DNA from: Arenibacter sp. F26102
GTDB taxonomy: Bacteria; Bacteroidota; Bacteroidia; Flavobacteriales; Flavobacteriaceae
Direction of reading: 5' to 3'
Length of the DNA: 64,000 nucleotides
Assembly: GCF_023015865.1 (NCBI RefSeq)
Contig: NZ_JALKBC010000008.1
Location: 62,001-126,000 of the forward strand
Position 1 is the stretch's first letter. Each line of letters begins with the position of its first letter. The translations under genes and the position numbers were made by a program. Shown here piece after piece: positions 25,284-63,632 of this stretch. The notes under the pieces are model-generated. The model was not told where the DNA came from, made no database searches, and was given only the letters and a program-made list of their open reading frames with translations.

Positions 25284-25326
25284 TGATTTTCATCAGTTGA
25301 ATCAACGAACGTTTTGAATAATTTTG
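25284..25326 (+). promoter_or_regulatory. Class II Crp/Fnr-type promoter of cbpA-cbpM
   Basis: TGATTTTCATCA (25284-25295) is a TGA-N6-TCA inverted repeat with the Fnr-like core TGAT-N4-ATCA. TAATTTTG (25319-25326) is a full TAnnTTTG -7 box 35 bases downstream, start to start. That puts the repeat centre near -41.5. The same geometry recurs at 26816, 58388 and 62383. Confidence 0.72.
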
Positions 25327-25445
25327 CCATATGCAACTAGTCCAATTGGAATTTCCAAAATTGGAGAAGAAAGCATTTAATTGCACATGCTTTTAATATG
25401 ATCGGTAGTACAAACACTAAAGTGTAAAGCATAAATAACGGACAG

Positions 25446-26339
25446 GTGAATTTTATAGACTATTACAAAATATTGGGTTTGGACAAAAGTGCCAGCCAAA
25501 GCGACATAAAAAAGGCGTACCGTAAATTGGCCCGAAAACACCATCCAGATGTTAATCCAAACGATAAGGAGGCAGAAAAGAAATTTAAGGAAATTAATGA
25601 AGCCAACGAAGTTTTGAGCGACCCTGAAAAACGTAAAAAATATGATAAGTACGGAAAGGATTGGCAACATGCAGAAGAATTTGAAAAGGCACGATCATCA
25701 CAGGGCTCCGGCTACAGTAGAGGCAGGAGAACTTCTTCACAAAGTTATGGTGAACATGATTTCTCTGATTTTTTCGAATCTATGTTTGGTGGTTCCAGTA
25801 ATTTTTCCGGAAGGGGACGGGCGCGTTTTCGAGGGCAGGATTTAAATGCGGAATTAAAATTACATATTAGGGATGTTTTTAGGACCCACAAGCAGACCCT
25901 CAATATAAACGGTAAAAACATCAGGATTACAGTCCCCGCAGGGATTGAAAATGGGCAAACCATAAAGATTACCGGACATGGGGGACCTGGTCATCAGGGA
26001 GGTCCAAACGGCGACCTGTATATCACCTTTGGAATCATAAACGATACACCCTTTAAAAGGGACGGTAACGATCTGTATACTTCTGTAGACCTAGATTTAT
26101 ATACCGCCCTATTGGGAGGTGAAATAATGGTGAATACTTTTGACGGACAGGTAAAACTAAATGTTAAACCAGAAACACAAAACGGCACCAAAATAAAATT
26201 AAAAGGAAAAGGCTTCCCAGTGTATAAAAAAAATGATGTTTACGGGAATCTATATATTACTTATAACCTGGTTACGCCAACCAATTTAACGCAAAAGGAG
26301 AAAAATCTATTTAAGGAACTGGCGGAGCTAAGAAAATAA
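25446..26339 (+). CDS. cbpA: J-domain co-chaperone CbpA
   Basis: 297 residues starting at a GTG. A TAA lies in frame at 25425 with no ATG between, so GTG is the only sensible start. The J domain (about 1-70) contains HPD at 33-35, a G/F- and S-rich linker runs to about 125, and two DnaJ C-terminal beta domains follow (about 130-290, [30 protein letters not shown]). The four-cysteine zinc repeats of DnaJ are absent, as in CbpA. It stimulates DnaK in protein folding; E. coli CbpA also binds curved DNA in stationary phase. Its inhibitor homologue cbpM follows after 66 bases. The leader is about 115 bases long. Confidence 0.92.
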
Positions 26340-26405: not shown

Positions 26406-26693
26406 ATGGAAAAGGAATATATCTTAATTACCGACTTCTGTTTAAGTCACAATATTGAAACCCATTTTGTAATGGAGCTTTATGAATTTGGACTGGTTGA
26501 GCTTGTTGTGAAAGAAAATGTACCTTACCTCCCTATTCAGCAATTGCCAAAAGCTGAAAAAATAATTAGGCTCTATTCCGACCTCGACATCAATTTGGAA
26601 GGTATAGCCGTTATTACCCAACTTCTCAATAAAATTGAAAAAATGCAGGATGAAATTACCCATCTCAAAAACAGACTGGACCTCTATGAATAA
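26406..26693 (+). CDS. cbpM: CbpM-like chaperone modulator (MerR-type fold)
   Basis: 95 residues. The N-terminal half has the MerR-like helical fold of CbpM (FCLSHNIETHFVMELYEFGLVELV, then LPIQQLPKAEKIIRLYSDLDINLEGIAVITQLL), and it ends in a predicted coiled coil (IEKMQDEITHLKNRLDLY). CbpM binds the J domain of CbpA and blocks its activity. The order cbpA-cbpM and the 66-base gap without a terminator support one transcript under the Crp/Fnr-type promoter. Confidence 0.85.
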   Translation: MEKEYILITDFCLSHNIETHFVMELYEFGLVELVVKENVPYLPIQQLPKAEKIIRLYSDLDINLEGIAVITQLLNKIEKMQDEITHLKNRLDLYE

Positions 26694-26815
26694 TCCCATC
26701 ATTAAGTATGCATTCCTGAATCAATATAATAGCATCCCTTTAAAGCCTAAAAATTCCATTTAAAATAACGATCAATTAGAACTCAAAACATAGAATTGAA
26801 AAAAATTACCGCAAC

Positions 26816-26858
26816 TGATTTAAATCATTTTACGTGAAGTGTTGGAAGTCTAATTTTG
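26816..26858 (+). promoter_or_regulatory. Class II Crp/Fnr-type promoter of the HMA-like gene
   Basis: TGATTTAAATCA (26816-26827) is a perfect 12-base palindrome of the TGA-N6-TCA type; TAATTTTG (26851-26858) follows with the same 35-base start-to-start spacing seen at three other genes. Transcription would start near 26863, 23 bases before the ATG at 26886. Confidence 0.74.
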
Positions 26859-26885: not shown

Positions 26886-27101
26886 ATGACAACATTGATC
26901 AAAGTAGAACAACTGATTTCTGAAGAAAATAAAACGGTAATAACAAGAAACTTAAGTCGGATTTTGGAATTAAGAATTTTGGACATTGATATTATTAATA
27001 AAACCATTTCCCTGGTCTATAACAACCCCTTTGTGTTGGACAAGGTCAAAAAAGAACTTGGTCGAGTAGGTTTTTCATTTCAAAATACTCCCGTACTTTA
27101 A
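26886..27101 (+). CDS. HMA-fold-like small protein without metal ligands
   Basis: 71 residues from the ATG at 26886. A TTG at 26856 is in frame but sits inside the -7 box, so it cannot be the start. The order TTLIKVEQL - VITRNLSRILELRILDIDIINKTISLVYN - VLDKVKKELGRVGF fits the beta-alpha-beta-beta-alpha-beta plan of heavy-metal-associated (HMA) domains, with the usual ending E-x-x-G-F. The CxxC metal site is absent: the protein contains no cysteine at all. It therefore should not carry copper in the usual way. It may be a regulatory or binding domain, and its own Crp/Fnr-type promoter shows that it is expressed as a single gene. The fold assignment is inference. Confidence 0.68.
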   Translation: MTTLIKVEQLISEENKTVITRNLSRILELRILDIDIINKTISLVYNNPFVLDKVKKELGRVGFSFQNTPVL

Positions 27102-54308: not shown

Positions 54309-54983
54309 TTAATCCAAAATCCGCCCATCCTCCATCTGGATGATGCGATCGGTACGTTTTGCAAAATCCTCGTCATGTGTCACTACCAAAAGGGAGAGAC
54401 CTTCCTCTTCTTTTAGCCGTTTAAATATACTGAAGACGTTTTCTGAGTTATGGCTGTCCAAATTTCCAGTGGGTTCATCTCCCATAAGTATGGAAGGATT
54501 GTTTATCAATGCCCGGGCAATGGCTACCCGTTGTTTTTCCCCGCCAGAGATTCGGGAAGCGCGTTGCTTTGCCAATTTTTCTATATCCAGCATTTTTAAT
54601 TTTTCCATGGCATCATGTTCTATTTCGGCCAGAGACTTCTCTGCCAATTTTTTGGCAGGTAGCATTACATTTTCAAGGACACTGAATTCGGACAACAAAT
54701 AATGGAACTGGAATACGAAGCCAATATGCTTATTGCGAATTCTGGAAAGTTCTTGATGCTTCTGTCCTGTAATTAATTTATTGTTTAGATATAGTTCACC
54801 GGTATAGTCTGTATCCATTGTAGAAAGAATATACAAGAGGGTAGATTTCCCTGAACCGGATTTCCCCATGATCGAAGCAAACTCCCCTTTCTTTATTTCA
54901 AAGGAAATATCCTTAAGCACATGAAATTTCACAGGCTTTTCAAAGAATTTATTGATTTTATTGGTTTTTAAAACGAGCTCCAT
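54309..54983 (-). CDS. ABC transporter ATP-binding protein (LolD/MacB type)
   Basis: 224 residues with the full set of ATPase motifs: Walker A GKSGSGKS (40-47), Q-loop FVFQFHYLLSEFS, signature ISGGEKQR, Walker B and catalytic glutamate LMGDEPTGNLDS, and the H-loop VVTHDEDFA. The close likeness to LolD/MacB/FtsE ATPases fits a mechanotransmission transporter. It is the last gene of a three-gene operon, nine bases after the permease. It could also serve the orphan permease at 1.9-3.2 kb, but that is speculation. Confidence 0.93.
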   Translation of the reverse strand: MELVLKTNKINKFFEKPVKFHVLKDISFEIKKGEFASIMGKSGSGKSTLLYILSTMDTDYTGELYLNNKLITGQKHQELSRIRNKHIGFVFQFHYLLSEFSVLENVMLPAKKLAEKSLAEIEHDAMEKLKMLDIEKLAKQRASRISGGEKQRVAIARALINNPSILMGDEPTGNLDSHNSENVFSIFKRLKEEEGLSLLVVTHDEDFAKRTDRIIQMEDGRILD

Positions 54984-54992
54984 TATGATTAC

Positions 54993-56255
54993 TTATGTTC
55001 CCCTGATAATTCGCACCGGGTCTATGCGTTTTGCCTTGTTGGAAGGCAACCAACCAGCGATAAAGGTAGATATTAGGGCAAAAGAAATACCGATGACATA
55101 ATACCATATATTGTAATTTATGGGATATGTGGTAATGGTTGGTAACGCCTCGGTTTCAAAGGCCACATTATCTATTAGTTTGGAAAGTACAAATCCAACT
55201 ACCAATCCAAGAATACCGCCTACGGTTCCTATGATCATGGCCTGACTCATAAAAATCAGCTGTACATCGGTACCCGAAAATCCGGTAGCCTTTAGAATGG
55301 CGATGTCCTTCATTTTCTCGTATATGAGCATATTAAGGATATTATAGATTCCAAAGCCCGCTACAATCAATAAGGTTATGGAAACGGCATAGGTAATTAA
55401 GTTCCGGATATTAGATCCCGTTTCAAATTGGGCGTTGGCCTCGTTTACGCTGGTCGCCTTAACTTGAAACTGCTTTTCCAGGCTTTTTGCCATGGCCGTG
55501 GCAGCGCCAATATCGTTCAATTTTACATTAATATCCGTTACGTAATTCTTGGGCTCTCCCAAAATACGCTGCACCGTTTTTAGATTGGCATAACTCTGAA
55601 TATTATCTATTTCCGCAATGCCACTTTGATATATCCCCACGATCTTTAGCGGAAACACATCACCCCTTATTGTACTAATCTGTACCCGATCCCCTTCTTT
55701 GAGCGACATTTTTTTGGCAAGACCAGCTCCTAAAAGAATTCCATTTTCGCTATTTTTTAAATCTTCGGGCGTACCCTGTATAATATAGTCGCCAATATTG
55801 GAAATTCGCGCTTCCTCCATTATGTCCACACCAAGTAGATTGCCCCCCAGTTCTATGGATCCGGAGAGATAGAAAATCTGCGCCCTTAGTTGGGGTGTGG
55901 CACCATATACATTTTTGTCCTTCTTCAAATAGTTCAGTATGGGTAGTCCATTGTGAATCTTCTTTTGACTTTGTTTGGGCTTTACGGAACTCACTACATT
56001 AAAGGCATCCTCAAATTCTTGGTACAGGGCAATAGGTTGCTTTTCCGAAGGCTCAATTTCATTGTAGATATGGATGTGCGGGGTTTGATTTAAAATAAGA
56101 CTGTCCAGCATTTCATTAAGTCCGGTCATAAAACTCACCAAGGTAATATAGGCCCCAATACCAAAGGTAACTCCCAAAGAGGCCGTGACCGTAGATTTCA
56201 TCTTGGTCAGCAAATGGGTTTTGGCAATGTTCAATATTACTTTCCAATTGATCAT
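54993..56255 (-). CDS. FtsX/MacB-type ABC transporter permease
   Basis: 420 residues. An N-terminal membrane segment (about 20-45, ASLGVTFGIGAYITLVSFM) precedes a periplasmic domain (about 55-285) and three C-terminal membrane segments (about 290-410). The FtsX coupling sequence YEKMKDIAILKATGFSGTDV is present. It is the permease of the adaptor-permease-ATPase operon: its ATG overlaps the adaptor's stop codon by four bases (56252-56255), and the ATPase follows nine bases later. There is no TolC gene in this cluster, so it would need an outer-membrane channel from elsewhere. Confidence 0.9.
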   Translation of the reverse strand: MINWKVILNIAKTHLLTKMKSTVTASLGVTFGIGAYITLVSFMTGLNEMLDSLILNQTPHIHIYNEIEPSEKQPIALYQEFEDAFNVVSSVKPKQSQKKIHNGLPILNYLKKDKNVYGATPQLRAQIFYLSGSIELGGNLLGVDIMEEARISNIGDYIIQGTPEDLKNSENGILLGAGLAKKMSLKEGDRVQISTIRGDVFPLKIVGIYQSGIAEIDNIQSYANLKTVQRILGEPKNYVTDINVKLNDIGAATAMAKSLEKQFQVKATSVNEANAQFETGSNIRNLITYAVSITLLIVAGFGIYNILNMLIYEKMKDIAILKATGFSGTDVQLIFMSQAMIIGTVGGILGLVVGFVLSKLIDNVAFETEALPTITTYPINYNIWYYVIGISFALISTFIAGWLPSNKAKRIDPVRIIRGT

Positions 56256-57334
56256 TCCTCGGGTTTTAGGATTTCTGTGCTCTCACCAATGCCATCCAGG
56301 ATTTCGACACTATCCATATTTCTCAGTCCAATGACAACTTCTACCAAACCATCATGGGTCATCACTTTATTCCCGTCTATTAAAAATTCCTTGGGAATGG
56401 TCAGTGCACTCTCTTTTTGTCTAATAATAATATTCCCCTCCCCTGCCAAGCCAGGGTAAAGTGCTTTTGGAGGGTCGTCAAAAGTGGCTTCTGCCATAAA
56501 CGTCTGGGAACGCTCGTCCTTTTTAGGATAAATCTTGCTTATTTTAGCATCAAAAACCTCATCTCCATAGGCGTCTAAAGTAATAAGGGCTTTTTGTCCC
56601 AAATTTAATTTTACAATATCGACCTCATCTATCAACAATTCAATAACAAAATCAGAACCACTACCTACAGCTGCCAAAGGTTCCATGGTACTGACGATTT
56701 CACCTGGATTTTTATAAAGGGCATAAACTTTTCCGTTTATCTTGCTTTTTAAGGTAAAATCTTGGGTAGAAATCTTGGAGGTAGAGTAATTGTTCAAAGC
56801 TTGTTTAAGCTGTGTAGAGAGTTCATTCCTGGTTTGCACGTACTTATTTTTAAGCTGCTTTAAATTATTTCCAGAAATTTCATACGCAAGTTTACGGTTT
56901 TCGAACTGCACTTTAGACCCAATATTCTGATCCCATAACCTCTTTTGCCTAAAATAATTCATGGAATCGTTTTTAAAGGACAAGGTTGCCGATTGGATCT
57001 CATCTTCCAAGGAACTCAATACTGCCGAGCTTCCATTATAATTTGCCTTCGCCAATTCCAATGCCAAACGAGCATTATCCGAATTGAGTTTCGGAGTGTT
57101 ATTAACAATCTGAACAATTGGAGTTCCCTTCATTACCTTATCGCCTTCCTCCAACAAATTAAGGTCTAAAATACCACCTACGGGGGCATAGGCCTGATAA
57201 AGACTATCTGGTTGTACGGTTACCGAGGCATAGACCGATTCCGTTAGATGTTTTTTAGTAGGGAATATCGTTTCTTGTTGGCTTCCACAGGATATGAAAA
57301 GAAAAAGAAAATTTATCCAGAAAAATTGCCTCAT
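56252..57334 (-). CDS. HlyD/MacA-type adaptor lipoprotein
   Basis: 360 residues from the ATG at 57334; an in-frame start at 57358 would add eight residues ahead of the signal. The signal is MRQFFWINFLFLFISC, a lipoprotein type with the cysteine at 16. Then come a lipoyl/barrel half (VQPDSLYQAYAPVGGILDLNLLEEGDKVMKGTPIVQI), an alpha-hairpin (about 80-185) and beta-barrel/membrane-proximal domains ending KEFLIDGNKVM and GLVEVVIGL. It is the first gene of the export operon and its stop codon overlaps the permease start. Confidence 0.88.
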   Translation of the reverse strand: MRQFFWINFLFLFISCGSQQETIFPTKKHLTESVYASVTVQPDSLYQAYAPVGGILDLNLLEEGDKVMKGTPIVQIVNNTPKLNSDNARLALELAKANYNGSSAVLSSLEDEIQSATLSFKNDSMNYFRQKRLWDQNIGSKVQFENRKLAYEISGNNLKQLKNKYVQTRNELSTQLKQALNNYSTSKISTQDFTLKSKINGKVYALYKNPGEIVSTMEPLAAVGSGSDFVIELLIDEVDIVKLNLGQKALITLDAYGDEVFDAKISKIYPKKDERSQTFMAEATFDDPPKALYPGLAGEGNIIIRQKESALTIPKEFLIDGNKVMTHDGLVEVVIGLRNMDSVEILDGIGESTEILKPEE

Positions 57335-57725
57335 TGCTATATAGTTAGGATGGTCCAAAATAAAGGGAATTTAACCTTGGAGAATATGAGAAAAGTCATA
57401 TATGTGTTAATTCTAGGGGTATTCCCAATTAATTCTTGTAAATTCTATCAAGAAAGTACTTGATAATAGTATTGGATGTATTACAGTTTCTAGACTTCTT
57501 TACCCTAATCCCTATTCCGCAACCACGATTACTAGCAATTTATTGTTGCCGCATACCATTGGCTAGATTTAAACAGAAGGTACAACTTAACCCAAAGAAA
57601 AAGGACATCACAAAAACGGGAATCTCAGACCCACCGTCTTGAAAATGTCCATTAACTTAAATTGGAAATAAAATCATTTACCTTGATTCCCATTAAATAT
57701 AAGGTCTGGGCAATGTTCTTACCTC
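57335..57725. other. Intergenic region between the adaptor gene and the PepSY-like gene
   Basis: About 390 bases between the divergent start of the adaptor gene and the 3' end of the PepSY-like gene. It holds a possible 25-codon lipoprotein-signal peptide (57386-57463). I see no terminator, RNA gene or other feature. An 11-base stretch resembling the 3' part of 16S rRNA (57526-57536) is too short to mean anything. Confidence 0.5.
57386..57463 (+). CDS. Possible 25-aa lipopeptide or lipoprotein-gene remnant
   Basis: ATG at 57386 to TGA at 57463. The peptide begins MRKVIYVLILGVFPINSC, a basic start, a hydrophobic core and a C that fits a lipobox, and ends eight residues later. It is either a very short lipoprotein like the entericidin type or the 5' end of a decayed lipoprotein gene. 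No ribosome-binding pattern or promoter box supports it strongly. Confidence 0.25.
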   Translation: MRKVIYVLILGVFPINSCKFYQEST

Positions 57726-58387: not shown

Positions 58388-58430
58388 TGACCAATATCAT
58401 ATTTTACCCAAATAGAAGGAACTAGATTTG
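58388..58430 (+). promoter_or_regulatory. Class II Crp/Fnr-type promoter of the PNPOx-like gene and ppsA
   Basis: TGACCAATATCA (58388-58399) is followed by TAGATTTG (58423-58430), again 35 bases start to start. Sixteen bases starting at the repeat (TGACCAATATCATATT) are identical to those at 62383-62398. The predicted transcription start is about 82 bases before the ATG at 58518. Confidence 0.74.
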
Positions 58431-58517: not shown

Positions 58518-58970
58518 ATGACAAATTTAACCACTAGCGAAAGTATTCGTTTACTTAAGGATAATTATACCGGTCACTTGGGATACATATGCCAAAATCA
58601 ACCATATGTTCTTCCTATTACCTATTATTATGACAAGGAAAATCACTCATTAATAAGTTATTCCGCGGATGGCCATAAGATAGAATCCATGCGAAAAAAC
58701 AATGCGGTTTCCCTATTAGTGGAGGAAATAAAATCAACAAACAATTGGCAATCCGTTATGGCCCATGGAACCTATGAAGAACTTAAGGGTATCGATGCCA
58801 AGTTTAAATTACATCAATTTACGGAGGGCGTCAAAAGCCTTATCCTTGCCAAGGAGCATAGAGAAACGGAATTTATAAGTGAATTTTCCAGCAAATTGTA
58901 CTCTCGGGGAATTCCAACCGTATACCGTATTAAAATATTGGATATTACTGGAAAAAGAAAAGAGACCTAG
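58518..58970 (+). CDS. Pyridoxamine 5'-phosphate oxidase-like FMN-binding protein
   Basis: 150 residues forming one split-barrel domain of the PNPOx-like class: TSESIRLLKDNYTGHLGYICQNQPYVLPITYYYDKENHSLISYSADGHKIESMRKNNAVSLLVEEI in outline, then WQSVMAHGTYEEL. Proteins of this size bind FMN or F420 and may bind haem; few have a known reaction, so I do not call it PdxH. It opens a probable operon with ppsA (104-base gap without a terminator) under a Crp/Fnr-type promoter. Small flavin-split-barrel proteins are often induced in low oxygen, which agrees with the promoter type. Confidence 0.82.
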   Translation: MTNLTTSESIRLLKDNYTGHLGYICQNQPYVLPITYYYDKENHSLISYSADGHKIESMRKNNAVSLLVEEIKSTNNWQSVMAHGTYEELKGIDAKFKLHQFTEGVKSLILAKEHRETEFISEFSSKLYSRGIPTVYRIKILDITGKRKET

Positions 58971-59074
58971 GATTCATAAGCCAAAGGTAAGTTCCCCCTT
59001 TTTTTTCCAGCTATTTGTAACTAGCTGTACATCCCTGTATAAGTAATTTCAAGAAACCATTTATTGTATTGGTG

Positions 59075-61483
59075 ATGAAAAACTACATAAGACACTTTAA
59101 CGAAATAGACATAAACAATGTCCCCGAAGTGGGAGGCAAAAATGCTTCATTGGGTGAAATGTATCAAAACCTGACTTCGAAGGGAGTTCAAGTTCCTGAC
59201 GGGTTTGCCACTACTTCTGAAGCTTATTGGCTCTTTATAAAGGAGGCAGGGTTAAAGGACTTCATTTTCATGGAAATGGAAAAATTGGACAAAAAGGATT
59301 TTTCCAATTTGAGGGAAGTTGGAACTGCTATACGTAACAAAATTGCCAAAGCACAATTTCCTGAGGCCATTAAAACTTCAGTGGAAAAGGGATACATTAC
59401 TATGGTGAAGAAATATGGCCCGGAAATCTCCTTGGCCGTCCGCAGTAGTGCAACGGCAGAAGATCTTCCCAATGCCAGCTTTGCAGGGCAACAAGAAACC
59501 TATCTTAACGTGAAGGGTTTGGATGAATTGATTGCTGCCTGTCATAAATGTTATGCTTCGCTGTTTACAGACAGAGCCATTAAATACCGAGAAGACAATA
59601 ATTTTGACCAGACCACGGTAGCCCTATCCATAGGTGTCCAATTAATGGTACGCTCAGATCTGGCCAGTTCCGGTGTTAATTTCACCATAGATCCAGACAG
59701 CGGTTTTGATCAGGTAATCCTGATATCCAGCATATGGGGTTTAGGGGAGAATATTGTCCAGGGAAGTGTAAATCCAGACGAATACTTCGTTTTTAAACCC
59801 AGTGTAAAAAAGGGGATACACCAACCTATAATTTCAAGAAAATTGGGGAGCAAGGAAAAAACAATGATATATGACCCCTCAGGCAGTGGCACGCTTAACC
59901 TCAATACCAAATTAGAAAAGCAAGAACAATTTGTACTAACGGACCCGGAAGTCATTAAACTGGCTGACTGGGCCATAATCATTGAAGAGCATTATGGCCG
60001 TCCTATGGATATAGAATGGGCCAAGGACGGATTGACGAATGAGCTGTTCATTGTACAAGCAAGACCAGAGACTGTGCAAAGTGCAAAAAAGGATAAGTTA
60101 AGGATTACAACCTATACCTTATTGGAAAAAGGTAGGGAAATTACAAGCGGAATGGGTCTTGGCAACAAAATATCCGCTGGAAAAGCCCGTATAATTCATA
60201 GCCCCATGGAATCCGACAAACTACAACCAGGAGAAATTCTTGTTACCGAAAAGACCGACCCGGATTGGGATCCCATCCTAAAAAAGGCGGCCGGTATTAT
60301 TACCGACCAAGGTGGACGAACAAGTCACGCTGCAATTGTTGCCCGTGAGGTTGGAGCGGCAGCCATTGTGGGTACCCTAAATGCCACTCAAACGATCAAG
60401 GATGGCCAAGATATCACCATCTCCTGTGCAGATGGGGATACGGGTGTAGTCTACGAAGGAATACTAAAATGGGATGAAAAAGTGGTGGATACAACAACAT
60501 TGAAAAAACCATTAACCCAACCCATGCTTATTCTGGCAGATCCAGAGCAGGCCTTCAAGCTGTCGTTTTACCCTACTGCCGGCGTTGGTCTGATGCGATT
60601 GGAATTCGTTATCAACAATTCCATCCAAATCCATCCCATGGCGCTAAAACGTTTTGATTCCTTAAAGGATGTCCCAGCCAAAAAACTTATTGATAAACTA
60701 ACACATCACTACCCTGACAAGGCCAATTATTTTGTACATAAACTTGCAGAGGGCATAGCTACCATAGCGGCAGCTTTTTATCCCAAGGATGTTATTGTTC
60801 GAACCAGTGATTTCAAATCCAACGAATACGCCAATTTAATAGGCGGTAAGGAATTTGAACCAATTGAGTCCAACCCTATGATCGGTTTTAGGGGAGCATC
60901 ACGTTACTATCATCCCAAATACCAAGAGGCTTTTGAAATGGAGTGTAAAGCAATGAAAATGGTTAGGGAAGACATGGGTTTTAACAATGTAAAAATTATG
61001 ATTCCCTTCTGTCGTACTATTAAGGAAGCTGAAAAAGTGGTTGACCTTATGGCAGATTACGGATTAAAAAGAGGAGAAAACGGCCTACAACTATATATGA
61101 TGACCGAAATTCCCAACAATGTTGTACTCGCGGAGGAGTTTTCACAATTTTTTGATGGCTTCTCTATAGGCTCCAACGACCTTACCCAATTGACTTTGGG
61201 GGTGGACCGCGATTCACAGCTCTTAAGCGACATTTTTGATGCCAATGACCCTGGAGTAAAAAAAATGATCGCCATGGTCATTGCTTCGGCTCGTAAAACC
61301 AATACAAAAATTGGACTATGCGGACAGGCACCTAGTGATTACCCCGAGTTTGCCCAATTTCTTGTAGAACAAGGAATCAACTCCATATCCTTTAACCCCG
61401 ATGCCCTTATCGCTGGAATTAAAAATATAAATGTGGCTGAGGAAAGTAAGATTAGCTTTGGAATGGCGGAAAGTAGTAATTAA
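59075..61483 (+). CDS. ppsA: Phosphoenolpyruvate synthase
   Basis: 802 residues from the ATG at 59075; TTG and GTG codons just before it are in frame but less likely. Three parts are visible: the ATP-grasp domain (about 15-340, VGGKNASLGEM, VRSSATAEDLPNASFAGQQET), the phosphohistidine domain with GGRTSHAAIVARE (H418, matching H421 of E. coli), and the PEP/pyruvate domain ending with IGLCGQAPSDYPEF (catalytic C749, E. coli C751). It makes PEP from pyruvate with ATP for gluconeogenesis. The neighbours pfkB and glk work in the glycolytic direction, so tight control would be expected. It probably shares the PNPOx-like gene's promoter. Confidence 0.95.
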   Translation: MKNYIRHFNEIDINNVPEVGGKNASLGEMYQNLTSKGVQVPDGFATTSEAYWLFIKEAGLKDFIFMEMEKLDKKDFSNLREVGTAIRNKIAKAQFPEAIKTSVEKGYITMVKKYGPEISLAVRSSATAEDLPNASFAGQQETYLNVKGLDELIAACHKCYASLFTDRAIKYREDNNFDQTTVALSIGVQLMVRSDLASSGVNFTIDPDSGFDQVILISSIWGLGENIVQGSVNPDEYFVFKPSVKKGIHQPIISRKLGSKEKTMIYDPSGSGTLNLNTKLEKQEQFVLTDPEVIKLADWAIIIEEHYGRPMDIEWAKDGLTNELFIVQARPETVQSAKKDKLRITTYTLLEKGREITSGMGLGNKISAGKARIIHSPMESDKLQPGEILVTEKTDPDWDPILKKAAGIITDQGGRTSHAAIVAREVGAAAIVGTLNATQTIKDGQDITISCADGDTGVVYEGILKWDEKVVDTTTLKKPLTQPMLILADPEQAFKLSFYPTAGVGLMRLEFVINNSIQIHPMALKRFDSLKDVPAKKLIDKLTHHYPDKANYFVHKLAEGIATIAAAFYPKDVIVRTSDFKSNEYANLIGGKEFEPIESNPMIGFRGASRYYHPKYQEAFEMECKAMKMVREDMGFNNVKIMIPFCRTIKEAEKVVDLMADYGLKRGENGLQLYMMTEIPNNVVLAEEFSQFFDGFSIGSNDLTQLTLGVDRDSQLLSDIFDANDPGVKKMIAMVIASARKTNTKIGLCGQAPSDYPEFAQFLVEQGINSISFNPDALIAGIKNINVAEESKISFGMAESSN

Positions 61484-62256: not shown

Positions 62257-62690
62257 TCTGTCTCCCAAGACAGTGCGATAAATTGAAACATACCTCATTC
62301 AATGACTATTTATTATTAAACAAACACATGCCTTGAACCTTACAATCCATGCAGCAATAGAATGGATATTACTATAAGGTAATGACCAATATCATATTAG
62401 ATCACCTTCATAATTACTTCCTTTGTTATTACAATTGCAACACCTTATCGTGTGCCGTAATCCAATCTTGTTCAAACAACGATTAAGAATCCGGATTATA
62501 TTGAAAAAGGACTTTCCAATAATAAAAACGTCCATTTGAGTCCAATGAAAAAAAGGAAAACATATCATTTAGAATGGTATTTCATGTACCCACTGATTTG
62601 GAACCAAGGATACCCCCCAAAATTAGTGAAGGTCATTTATTGCAAAATCCAAATTAATTGAATCATGAACAATTATTAACTCCGACTAAC
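62257..62690. other. Regulatory region upstream of pfkB with a long leader
   Basis: 434 bases. They carry the Crp/Fnr-type promoter at 62383-62425 and then about 260 bases of leader before the pfkB ATG. A 38-codon frame (62545-62661) is present, but its sequence shows nothing gene-like. I see no clear riboswitch or attenuator fold by eye. Confidence 0.5.
62383..62425 (+). promoter_or_regulatory. Class II Crp/Fnr-type promoter of pfkB-glk
   Basis: TGACCAATATCA (62383-62394) is followed by TTCCTTTG (62418-62425), one mismatch from TAnnTTTG and again 35 bases start to start. The 16-base block TGACCAATATCATATT is identical to the one at 58388-58403. Confidence 0.66.
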
Positions 62691-63632
62691 ATGCGTAAAA
62701 AAATAGTAACTCTTACATTAAATCCCGTATTGGACAAAAGCGTTACAGTAGCTGGCATTAGCCCTAACACGAAACTTCGTTGTACTGCGCCAACTTACGA
62801 TGCGGGAGGAGGTGGCATTGATGTATCCCGTGCCGTTAAAAAATTGGGAATGGATTCACTCTGTATATATCTCGCAGGCGGTCCTACCGGAGAACATTTA
62901 AAACAACTTTTGGACAAGGCAGGTATTGACCAATTAGCGATTCCCATTAGGGGATGGACACGCGATAATCTTGCTGTTACCGATACCATTACCAATTTAC
63001 AATACCGCTTTGGGGTTCCTGGACCAAATGTAGAAAAAGAAGAATGGGAAACCCTACTTGATCAATTGGAAAAAAATTTGGAAGAAGGTGACTATTTGGT
63101 GGCCAGCGGTAAATTGCCGCCTGGAATTCCCGATGATTTTTACGTTCAGGTAGCCGAAGTGGCCAAAAATAAAAAGTCAAGGTTTGTATTGGACACTTCC
63201 GGTGAGGCTTTGGTAAAGGCCACTAAATCCAAAGTTTTTATGCTTAAACCCAATTTGGGCGAGCTAAGTTCCTTATGCGGGGTAGAATCCATATCCGCTA
63301 TGGAACTGGAACCATTGGCCAAAAAGTTTTTGAATGAGCATGATTGTGAGATACTAGTAGTCTCTTTGGGTGCAAAAGGAGCCCTATTGGCTACTAAAAA
63401 CCTAATGGAGCATATTCCCGCACCCACTGTTCTACAAAAAAGTACCATTGGAGCGGGTGATAGTATGGTGGCAGGTATGATCGTGAGTCTGCTTCAGGGC
63501 AAAACCTATAGTGAGATGGTAAAATATGGTGTAGCCTGTGGTACTGCAGCTACCATGCATGAAGGTACTCAACTATGCAATAAGAACGATGCGGATAATT
63601 TGTACCAATGGGTCCTAAAGACACAAAAGTAA
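62691..63632 (+). CDS. pfkB: 6-phosphofructokinase II (PfkB family)
   Basis: 313 residues from the ATG at 62691; an in-frame TTG at 62658 would add eleven residues unlike the family. It matches E. coli PfkB throughout: an early VTLTLNPVLDKSVTV, the glycine-rich GGGGIDVSRAVKKLG, AGGPTGEHL, LPPGIPDDFY, KPNLGELSSL, the ribokinase-family catalytic GAGDS (D257; E. coli D256) and a C-terminal ATMHEGTQLC. It phosphorylates fructose 6-phosphate (or tagatose 6-phosphate) with ATP. A glucokinase begins 60 bases later, so the two phosphorylation steps are probably co-expressed. Confidence 0.92.
   Translation: MRKKIVTLTLNPVLDKSVTVAGISPNTKLRCTAPTYDAGGGGIDVSRAVKKLGMDSLCIYLAGGPTGEHLKQLLDKAGIDQLAIPIRGWTRDNLAVTDTITNLQYRFGVPGPNVEKEEWETLLDQLEKNLEEGDYLVASGKLPPGIPDDFYVQVAEVAKNKKSRFVLDTSGEALVKATKSKVFMLKPNLGELSSLCGVESISAMELEPLAKKFLNEHDCEILVVSLGAKGALLATKNLMEHIPAPTVLQKSTIGAGDSMVAGMIVSLLQGKTYSEMVKYGVACGTAATMHEGTQLCNKNDADNLYQWVLKTQK

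Follow-up and report, generated by a model that had tools for sequence, protein, structure and literature searches.

A candidate class II Crp/Fnr-type promoter architecture in the Flavobacteriaceae and its putative receiver-Crp activator

Operator-box sites and the genes behind them

The 64-kb window from Arenibacter sp. F26102 (the whole stretch of 64,000 nucleotides analysed here) contains a recurring arrangement in which a TGA-N6-TCA repeat is followed, after 23 bases, by a TAnnTTTG box. The first-pass annotation had placed this arrangement upstream of four genes, with a fixed 35 bases between the first base of the repeat and that of the box, and all four instances were recovered on the plus strand, as exact matches at 25284, 26816 and 58388 and with one box mismatch at 62383. 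A fifth, weaker, conserved site lies on the minus strand at 57356 and also carries one box mismatch, so that the box is exact at three of the five window sites.

The first site combines the operator TGATTTTCATCA (25284..25295) with the -7 box TAATTTTG (25319..25326) and precedes the gene for a cbpA-like DnaJ-family co-chaperone (25446..26339, plus strand; Pfam DnaJ and DnaJ_C), which scores 192.8 bits against the NCBIfam curved DNA-binding protein model, below its cut-off of 403. A cbpM-like MerR_2 protein (26406..26693, plus strand; Pfam MerR_2, E 2e-27) is encoded downstream. At the second site, the operator TGATTTAAATCA (26816..26827), a perfect palindrome, is followed by the same box, TAATTTTG (26851..26858), and by an open reading frame (26886..27101, plus strand) for a small protein of 71 aa, originally named HMA-like, whose residues 2-71 returned no Pfam match; a comparable small protein from a different genus (L109; 43% to an F26102 paralogue) likewise has an exact site (d=22). 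A minus-strand match at 26785 was rejected as a site, since it uses the same palindrome as 26816 and no minus-strand gene was seen close downstream.

The third site, with operator TGACCAATATCA (58388..58399) and box TAGATTTG (58423..58430), lies upstream of genes for a PNPOx-like protein (58518..58970, plus strand; Pfam Pyridox_ox_2, E 1.3e-15) and a ppsA-like PEP synthase (59069..61483, plus strand; Pfam PPDK_N and PEP-utilizers), which are 98 bp apart and presumably cotranscribed. The fourth repeats the operator TGACCAATATCA (62383..62394) with the mismatched box TTCCTTTG (62418..62425), ahead of a pfkB-family sugar kinase gene (62691..63632, plus strand; Pfam PfkB) and, next after it, a glucokinase gene (from 63693, plus strand; Pfam Glucokinase on the 102 residues within the window); a pfkB relative in another genome (G108) has an exact site (d=24). 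The fifth comprises the operator TGACTTTTCTCA (57387..57398, minus strand) and the box TTATTTTG (57356..57363, minus strand), with a gene for a HlyD-type fusion protein starting 29 bases past the box start; this gene is followed by a MacB/FtsX-type permease gene and the next minus-strand gene (together 54309..57334; Pfam HlyD_D23, MacB_PCD and FtsX, the third gene not being family-scanned).

Allowing at most one mismatch, the window holds six matches against 0.70 ± 0.82 expected, and none of 100 shuffles reached six. Scoring with a PWM derived from 112 exact sites in other genera placed the five sites at the top of the window, all above 20 bits (29.3 at 58388, 27.2 at 26816, 21.0 at 25284, 20.5 at 57356 on the minus strand and 20.3 at 62383), against a maximum of 12.4 in 12 random windows drawn from a first-order Markov model.

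Conservation upstream of orthologues, which the original proposal had made a test of the shared architecture, was borne out for the PNPOx-like gene and in part for cbpA. For these two genes, we searched 12 genus-mates from the orthologous proteins and not from the sites. The cbpA site is kept in six of the 12 (three exact, three with one mismatch), 127-132 bases from the start codon of genes whose products are 87-96% identical, and is absent within 420 b in the other six, which are the more distant ones (proteins 75-78%). The PNPOx site is exact in all six close genus-mates (proteins 83-93%), 74-101 bases from the start codon; four more distant genus-mates have relatives at 45-54%, with one exact site, one with a single mismatch and two without, and the relative is missing in the remaining two, being present in 10/12. 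In another genus (L106), no site lies within 420 b upstream of the gene for the PNPOx relative itself, and the gene that it follows has one. The HMA-like site was present in all three genus-mates inspected, the pfkB site in two of four, with the same one-mismatch box, and the fifth site in four of four, with one mismatch each; as the regions of these four genus-mates were chosen for having listed sites, the three fractions come from a small, non-random sample and are not unbiased, and they uphold the claim for the HMA-like gene and partly for pfkB.

In two reports on Flavobacterium, the flavobacterial -7 box spans T-12 to G-5 (PMC6847099, PMC9723704). With the first base of the box at -12, the repeat falls at -47 to -36 and its centre at -41.5, and transcription is predicted to start at 25331, 26863, 58435, 62430 and, for the minus-strand site, 57351; the first four are the very positions that had been proposed before. 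The fixed 35-base spacing and the published box numbering thus support the earlier interpretation of the motif as a class II Crp/Fnr-type activator promoter. Elsewhere, the distance from box start to start codon is 20-40 bases at 30 of 43 sites in one set and 32 of 69 in another, in keeping with a promoter box followed by a short leader. The predicted leaders of pfkB (~261 nt), cbpA (~115 nt) and the PNPOx-like gene (83 nt) are longer, and we count them as weak points; with its mismatched box and long leader, pfkB is the weakest of the four sites first noted.

Distribution of the architecture and recurring target genes

The suggested search of the whole genome and of related Flavobacteriaceae confirmed that the architecture is found across the family, on a larger scale than first noted. 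In the 5.44-Mb F26102 genome, the exact pattern occurs 26 times, against two matches for a reversed-pattern control. When the gap between repeat and box was varied from 8 to 38 bases, the 26 matches at gap 23 stood against a total of 57 for the other 30 gaps (mean 1.9, maximum 6 at gap 24; Poisson P ~7e-21). One of the 26 genome matches (L005) falls within a long reading frame and probably arose by chance; another (L009) is at the start of a frame whose own start is uncertain. Across 149 Flavobacteriaceae genomes, one per genus, we counted 1355 exact matches against 135 for the control, with at least eight matches in 83 genomes and never more than four for the control in any of them. In 69 site regions that we read from eight genomes with listed site positions (selected from two regulator classes defined below), a frame starts at most 60 bases from the box in 50, and only two sites lie inside frames.

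The genes behind these sites recur. In F26102, sites precede the gene for an Fnr-like regulator, hemN and a copper nitrite reductase gene (both by NCBIfam), a patatin gene (Pfam) and, by reading, genes for c-type cytochromes, FtsH, the HK1 kinase and universal stress proteins, as well as deoC and others. In other genera, they precede ccoS (at 25-28 bases), hemN, universal stress protein genes beside the receiver-Crp regulator described below, and genes for HPF, pta, pfkB, hsp20, an MlaE-type permease and PFL-type enzymes; NirK is also among the recurring genes. Family profiles identified HPF, CcoS and pta, and names given without a profile search come from reading of the sequences or from BLAST to F26102 genes. 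HPF-type ribosome hibernation factors follow exact sites at L109:13228-13530 (Pfam) and, by reading, at L115:16114-16413 and in L150, L162 and L179. According to PMC9723704, cbb3 oxidase and heme-pathway genes of F. psychrophilum are induced on oxygen limitation; the main text of that report contains neither fnr nor crp. Taken with this induction, the genes behind the sites point to low oxygen and energy shortage as the common theme, and the recurrence of ccoS, hemN, NirK, universal stress proteins, pta and HPF in other genera lends support to the low-oxygen or energy-stress response proposed from the window genes.

Candidate regulators and their association with the sites

The regulator had been said to lie outside the window, which is correct: two candidates are found 12 and 33 kb past its right end, on sequence continuous with it (C83). 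Both copies (C83:138231-139298, minus strand, and C83:159463-160515, plus strand) stand behind a PAS histidine kinase gene and encode a response-regulator receiver fused to a Crp/Fnr output (Pfam REC, cNMP_binding and HTH_Crp_2), hereafter REC-Crp, a fusion of which we found no description in the open-access literature searched. The surrounding island contains pta-ackA, several universal stress protein genes in a row, and genes for thioredoxin, Hsp20, cation P-type ATPases and glycogen phosphorylase, with pta named by Pfam and most other genes by reading. One universal stress protein gene of this island, downstream of a site, has a long run of Val codons (a simple repeat) in its presumed leader (C83:156365-156559). 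Three palindromes on C83 (131679/131710, 137166/137197 and 146631/146662) have box-like sequence at equal spacing on both strands, and look as though a single operator might serve a pair of divergent class II promoters.

A second kind of candidate, an Fnr-like protein of 228 aa (L033, L073), is encoded near cbb3 assembly genes at C66:191427-192110. A site precedes it, with the start codon 31 bases past the box; a divergently oriented gene encodes a heavy-metal P-type ATPase, and ccoS is a few kb off. The protein has the domains of the Crp/Fnr fold (cNMP_binding and HTH_Crp), and C4, C7, C53 and C106 are invariant in its best 30 matches, the F26102 protein included. It does not reproduce the four-cysteine layout of E. 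coli Fnr, C20, C23, C29 and C122, which we take to be the FNR ligands: C4, C7 and C106 align with ligands and no cysteine stands at the C29 position, so the third cluster ligand seems to have moved relative to FNR. Against the NCBIfam Fnr model (NF008365), it scores 104.1 bits, short of the cut-off of 228. The F26102 genome has 12 cNMP-binding matches in all, 11 of them above cut-off, and three adjoin sites. Upstream of another Crp-like gene (C33:93348-93953; L032), the palindrome TTGATTTAAATCAA is accompanied by a box-like sequence at a different spacing.

Site numbers follow both candidates. Scoring REC-Crp as present at a best E <1e-60 and the Fnr-like protein at a best E <1e-45 (a threshold that counts G043, at 2e-48, as present and G020, at 6e-41, as not), the median number of sites per family genome is 1 with neither regulator (n=29), 7 with the Fnr-like protein only (n=54), 9 with REC-Crp only (n=30) and 16.5 with both (n=36); in genomes at least 90% complete, the medians are 1.5 (n=18), 7 (n=45), 9.5 (n=28) and 17 (n=35), shared ancestry being ignored in both comparisons. 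A regression that includes genome size and likewise ignores shared ancestry (148 genomes, F26102 left out) assigns +6.7 sites to REC-Crp and +4.5 to the Fnr-like protein, with an interaction of -0.15. Three genomes with neither regulator (G048, G138 and G147) still have 7-10 sites. Outside the family, class-level genomes show no clear difference, with a median of 5 sites with REC-Crp (n=20) and 4 without (n=8; P 0.22).

Sites also crowd near the regulator genes. Within about 20 kb of the regulator lie 14 of 43 sites in four REC-Crp-only genomes (0.51 expected) and 13 of 53 in five Fnr-only genomes (0.57 expected), with sites on regulator-free contigs of G017 and G044 entered as placeholders. 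Outside the family, 15 of 73 sites in class-level genomes are equally near REC-Crp (0.71 expected), a count taken over the 14 of 20 genomes with full-length REC-Crp that have listed site positions; among the other six, three have a site directly behind REC-Crp, and G203, G238 and G230, the last of which has no site, have none in 15 kb. At the best 80 of 577 confirmed loci of REC-Crp copy 2, a long frame aligning to the kinase stands directly upstream in 76 of 80; 79 of them have enough sequence to look downstream, and 69 of these show an exact site on the same strand no more than 400 b behind the gene. Being the best of the 577, the set leans to close relatives. A kinase-like gene is directly upstream of REC-Crp at all 13 family loci, one of them truncated where the locus ends, and at 15 of 19 class-level loci, in a count for which gene calling missed the REC-Crp of L311.

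The alternative that survives best is that the Fnr-like protein activates all the sites, those of the window included, with the REC-Crp genes merely among its targets. The 54 Fnr-only genomes with their median of seven sites favor this explanation, as does the site ahead of the protein's own start codon, and operator logos from REC-Crp-only and Fnr-only genomes (65 and 47 sites) show no clear difference, so that single sites cannot be assigned to one regulator. We nevertheless consider it unlikely, since 30 genomes have REC-Crp without an Fnr-like orthologue and keep a median of nine sites, the effects of the two regulators are additive with no interaction, and the island sites crowd around REC-Crp. 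The sites of REC-Crp-only genomes, where read, include those of low-oxygen genes: exact sites precede hemN in G101, G027, G130 and G143 and ccoS in G027, G130 and G143. The 69 regions mentioned above were drawn from four such genomes (31 regions, of 30 genomes) and four Fnr-only genomes (38 regions, of 54). Site counts, nearness, shared targets and like logos together make it most likely that both regulators share one promoter design; for the window genes, REC-Crp is the better candidate by position, as these genes lie in its island.

It is improbable that the sites are used by some other member of the Crp family, for example P0003 on C33, perhaps in response to cAMP or carbon supply. The recognition helix of P0003 is similar, the genome offers the further cNMP-binding proteins counted above, and carbon sensing has been predicted for Flavobacteriales CRP/FNR homologues (PMC8510549); against this, the recurring targets are low-oxygen genes, and in G101 (11 sites) and G143 (10 sites) REC-Crp is the only HTH_Crp_2 protein above the Pfam cut-off that we read with a Glu-x3-Arg recognition pattern. 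A second Crp-type protein with a Glu-x3-Arg helix is present in G027 (L328) and G130 (L325).

Slightly less probable still is a repressor that sits over the -35 region and blocks polymerase until a signal frees it. Crp/Fnr proteins are able to repress, and position by itself is no proof of activation; a fixed centre at -41.5 is, however, the usual position of activators, repressor sites being more variable, and a single spacing dominates the gap scan. Chance, or a by-product of AT-rich promoter composition, can be rejected: the motif is short and degenerate, the genome is AT-rich and one of its 26 matches lies deep in a reading frame, but orthologue conservation opposes such an origin, as do the shuffles, the reversed-pattern control, the spacing scan and the PWM null.

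A putative oxygen switch and its relation to known systems

The kinases paired with REC-Crp bear on the nature of the signal. Their alignments were read against what we take to be the heme- and oxygen-binding residues of FixL and DosP. The FixL heme-PAS signature is found in six of 15 aligned class-level kinases before REC-Crp, one of which (L306) matches the FixL heme domain with E 2.7e-31. At three of the signature loci (L306, L308 and L309), an exact site lies directly behind REC-Crp and is followed by a dehydrogenase-like gene, shorter in L306, and a hemN-like gene, both named by reading. Oxygen sensing by these class-level kinases is well supported at the level of their sequences, and is only suggested for the F26102 kinases HK1 and HK2. 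The best solved match of the first PAS domain of HK2 is FixL (E 1.5e-13), and HK2 has a His aligned to the heme ligand (76/76 relatives) and an aligned Arg (68/76), without the IIGIGRE signature, which leaves its heme binding uncertain; in the PAS alignment of HK1, the heme-ligand His is missing. Three residues past the presumed heme-ligand His, HK2 (L029:11944-13455) also has an Asn in place of the second His found in 76 of 76 relatives.

We consider it probable that the window sites are class II promoters whose most likely activator is REC-Crp, switched by its kinase when oxygen or respiration falls. The sites, their spacing and partial conservation, their nearness to and association with the regulators and the domain fusion are computed observations; binding, phosphorylation, oxygen as the signal and activation rather than repression are what we infer from them. 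As proposed here, a dimeric Crp/Fnr-family protein would bind TGA-N6-TCA centred at -41.5 and contact RNA polymerase on the Bacteroidota -7 box. Falling oxygen or respiration would lead the PAS histidine kinase to phosphorylate REC-Crp, which would then induce chaperones, universal stress proteins and the enzymes of glycolysis and overflow metabolism. A FixL-like kinase would in this way act through REC-Crp on low-oxygen genes directly, the roles of FixJ and FixK being joined in one protein, and the Fnr-like protein encoded on C66 would work through promoters of the same design, chiefly those of cbb3 and heme genes, and may have targets in common with REC-Crp. Finely balanced, in our judgement, is the broader proposal that the Bacteroidia possess a one-step oxygen switch, a FixL-like kinase with REC-Crp at -41.5, beside or instead of an Fnr whose cluster cysteine has been relocated and which reads promoters of this design, such that the two regulons add and, at cbb3 and heme genes, one regulator can stand in for the other.

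Activator-dependent promoters of the Bacteroidota, which have their own sigma factor and box, seem to have been little mapped. The fixed operator-box geometry can be searched for, and predicts promoters, transcription starts and low-oxygen regulons in many genera of the family. It would be read by two seemingly interchangeable regulators, one of them a receiver-Crp fusion, and the loss or replacement of a regulator between genera offers a natural test of regulon rewiring.

Class II CRP/FNR promoters of E. coli have an operator centred at -41.5 with a TGA-N6-TCA core, and the sites described here share this centre, core and single helical register; they differ in depending on a Bacteroidota sigma factor and a TAnnTTTG box, not on -35/-10 elements. 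Compared with FNR (solved chains such as 5e44, presumably from Aliivibrio), the Fnr-like protein has the same fold, low-oxygen targets and cysteines aligning to three of the four ligands, and differs in having an invariant Cys at 53 in place of one at the C29 position and in falling below the NCBIfam Fnr cut-off.

FixJ has a LuxR-type output, and REC-Crp, which shares the receiver, has a Crp-type output instead and so falls outside FixJ; it also falls outside FixK, which has no receiver. Class-level partner kinases that combine the signature with a histidine kinase would, on sequence, qualify as FixL. The likeness to the FixL-FixJ-FixK cascade of rhizobia and Caulobacter (PMC7078487) extends to a PAS kinase (with a FixL-type signature in six class-level loci), a response regulator, a Crp/Fnr-type activator and high-affinity oxidase and heme targets; because receiver and Crp output occupy one protein, REC-Crp would dispense, unlike that cascade, with a separate fixK step.

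The output domain of DosR/DevR is NarL-type; REC-Crp, with its Crp-type output and unrelated operator, differs from DosR/DevR and OsdR and stands outside the DosR/DevR class. With the DosR/DevR and OsdR regulons (PMC5069765), it shares two-component control of universal stress proteins; the predicted OsdR targets there include PNPOx and pyruvate phosphate dikinase, and many stress genes lie near osdRK. The low-oxygen-activated island of PMC6127331 similarly unites universal stress proteins and a heat-shock protein with a link to FixLJ and the Crp-family FixK, and differs in having separate FixLJ and FixK, in its phylum and in its promoter type. By the tests applied, the system belongs to none of these classes; by analogy, it is FixLJ-FixK-like, its last two steps being combined, and in content it resembles DosR-type or low-oxygen-activated islands.
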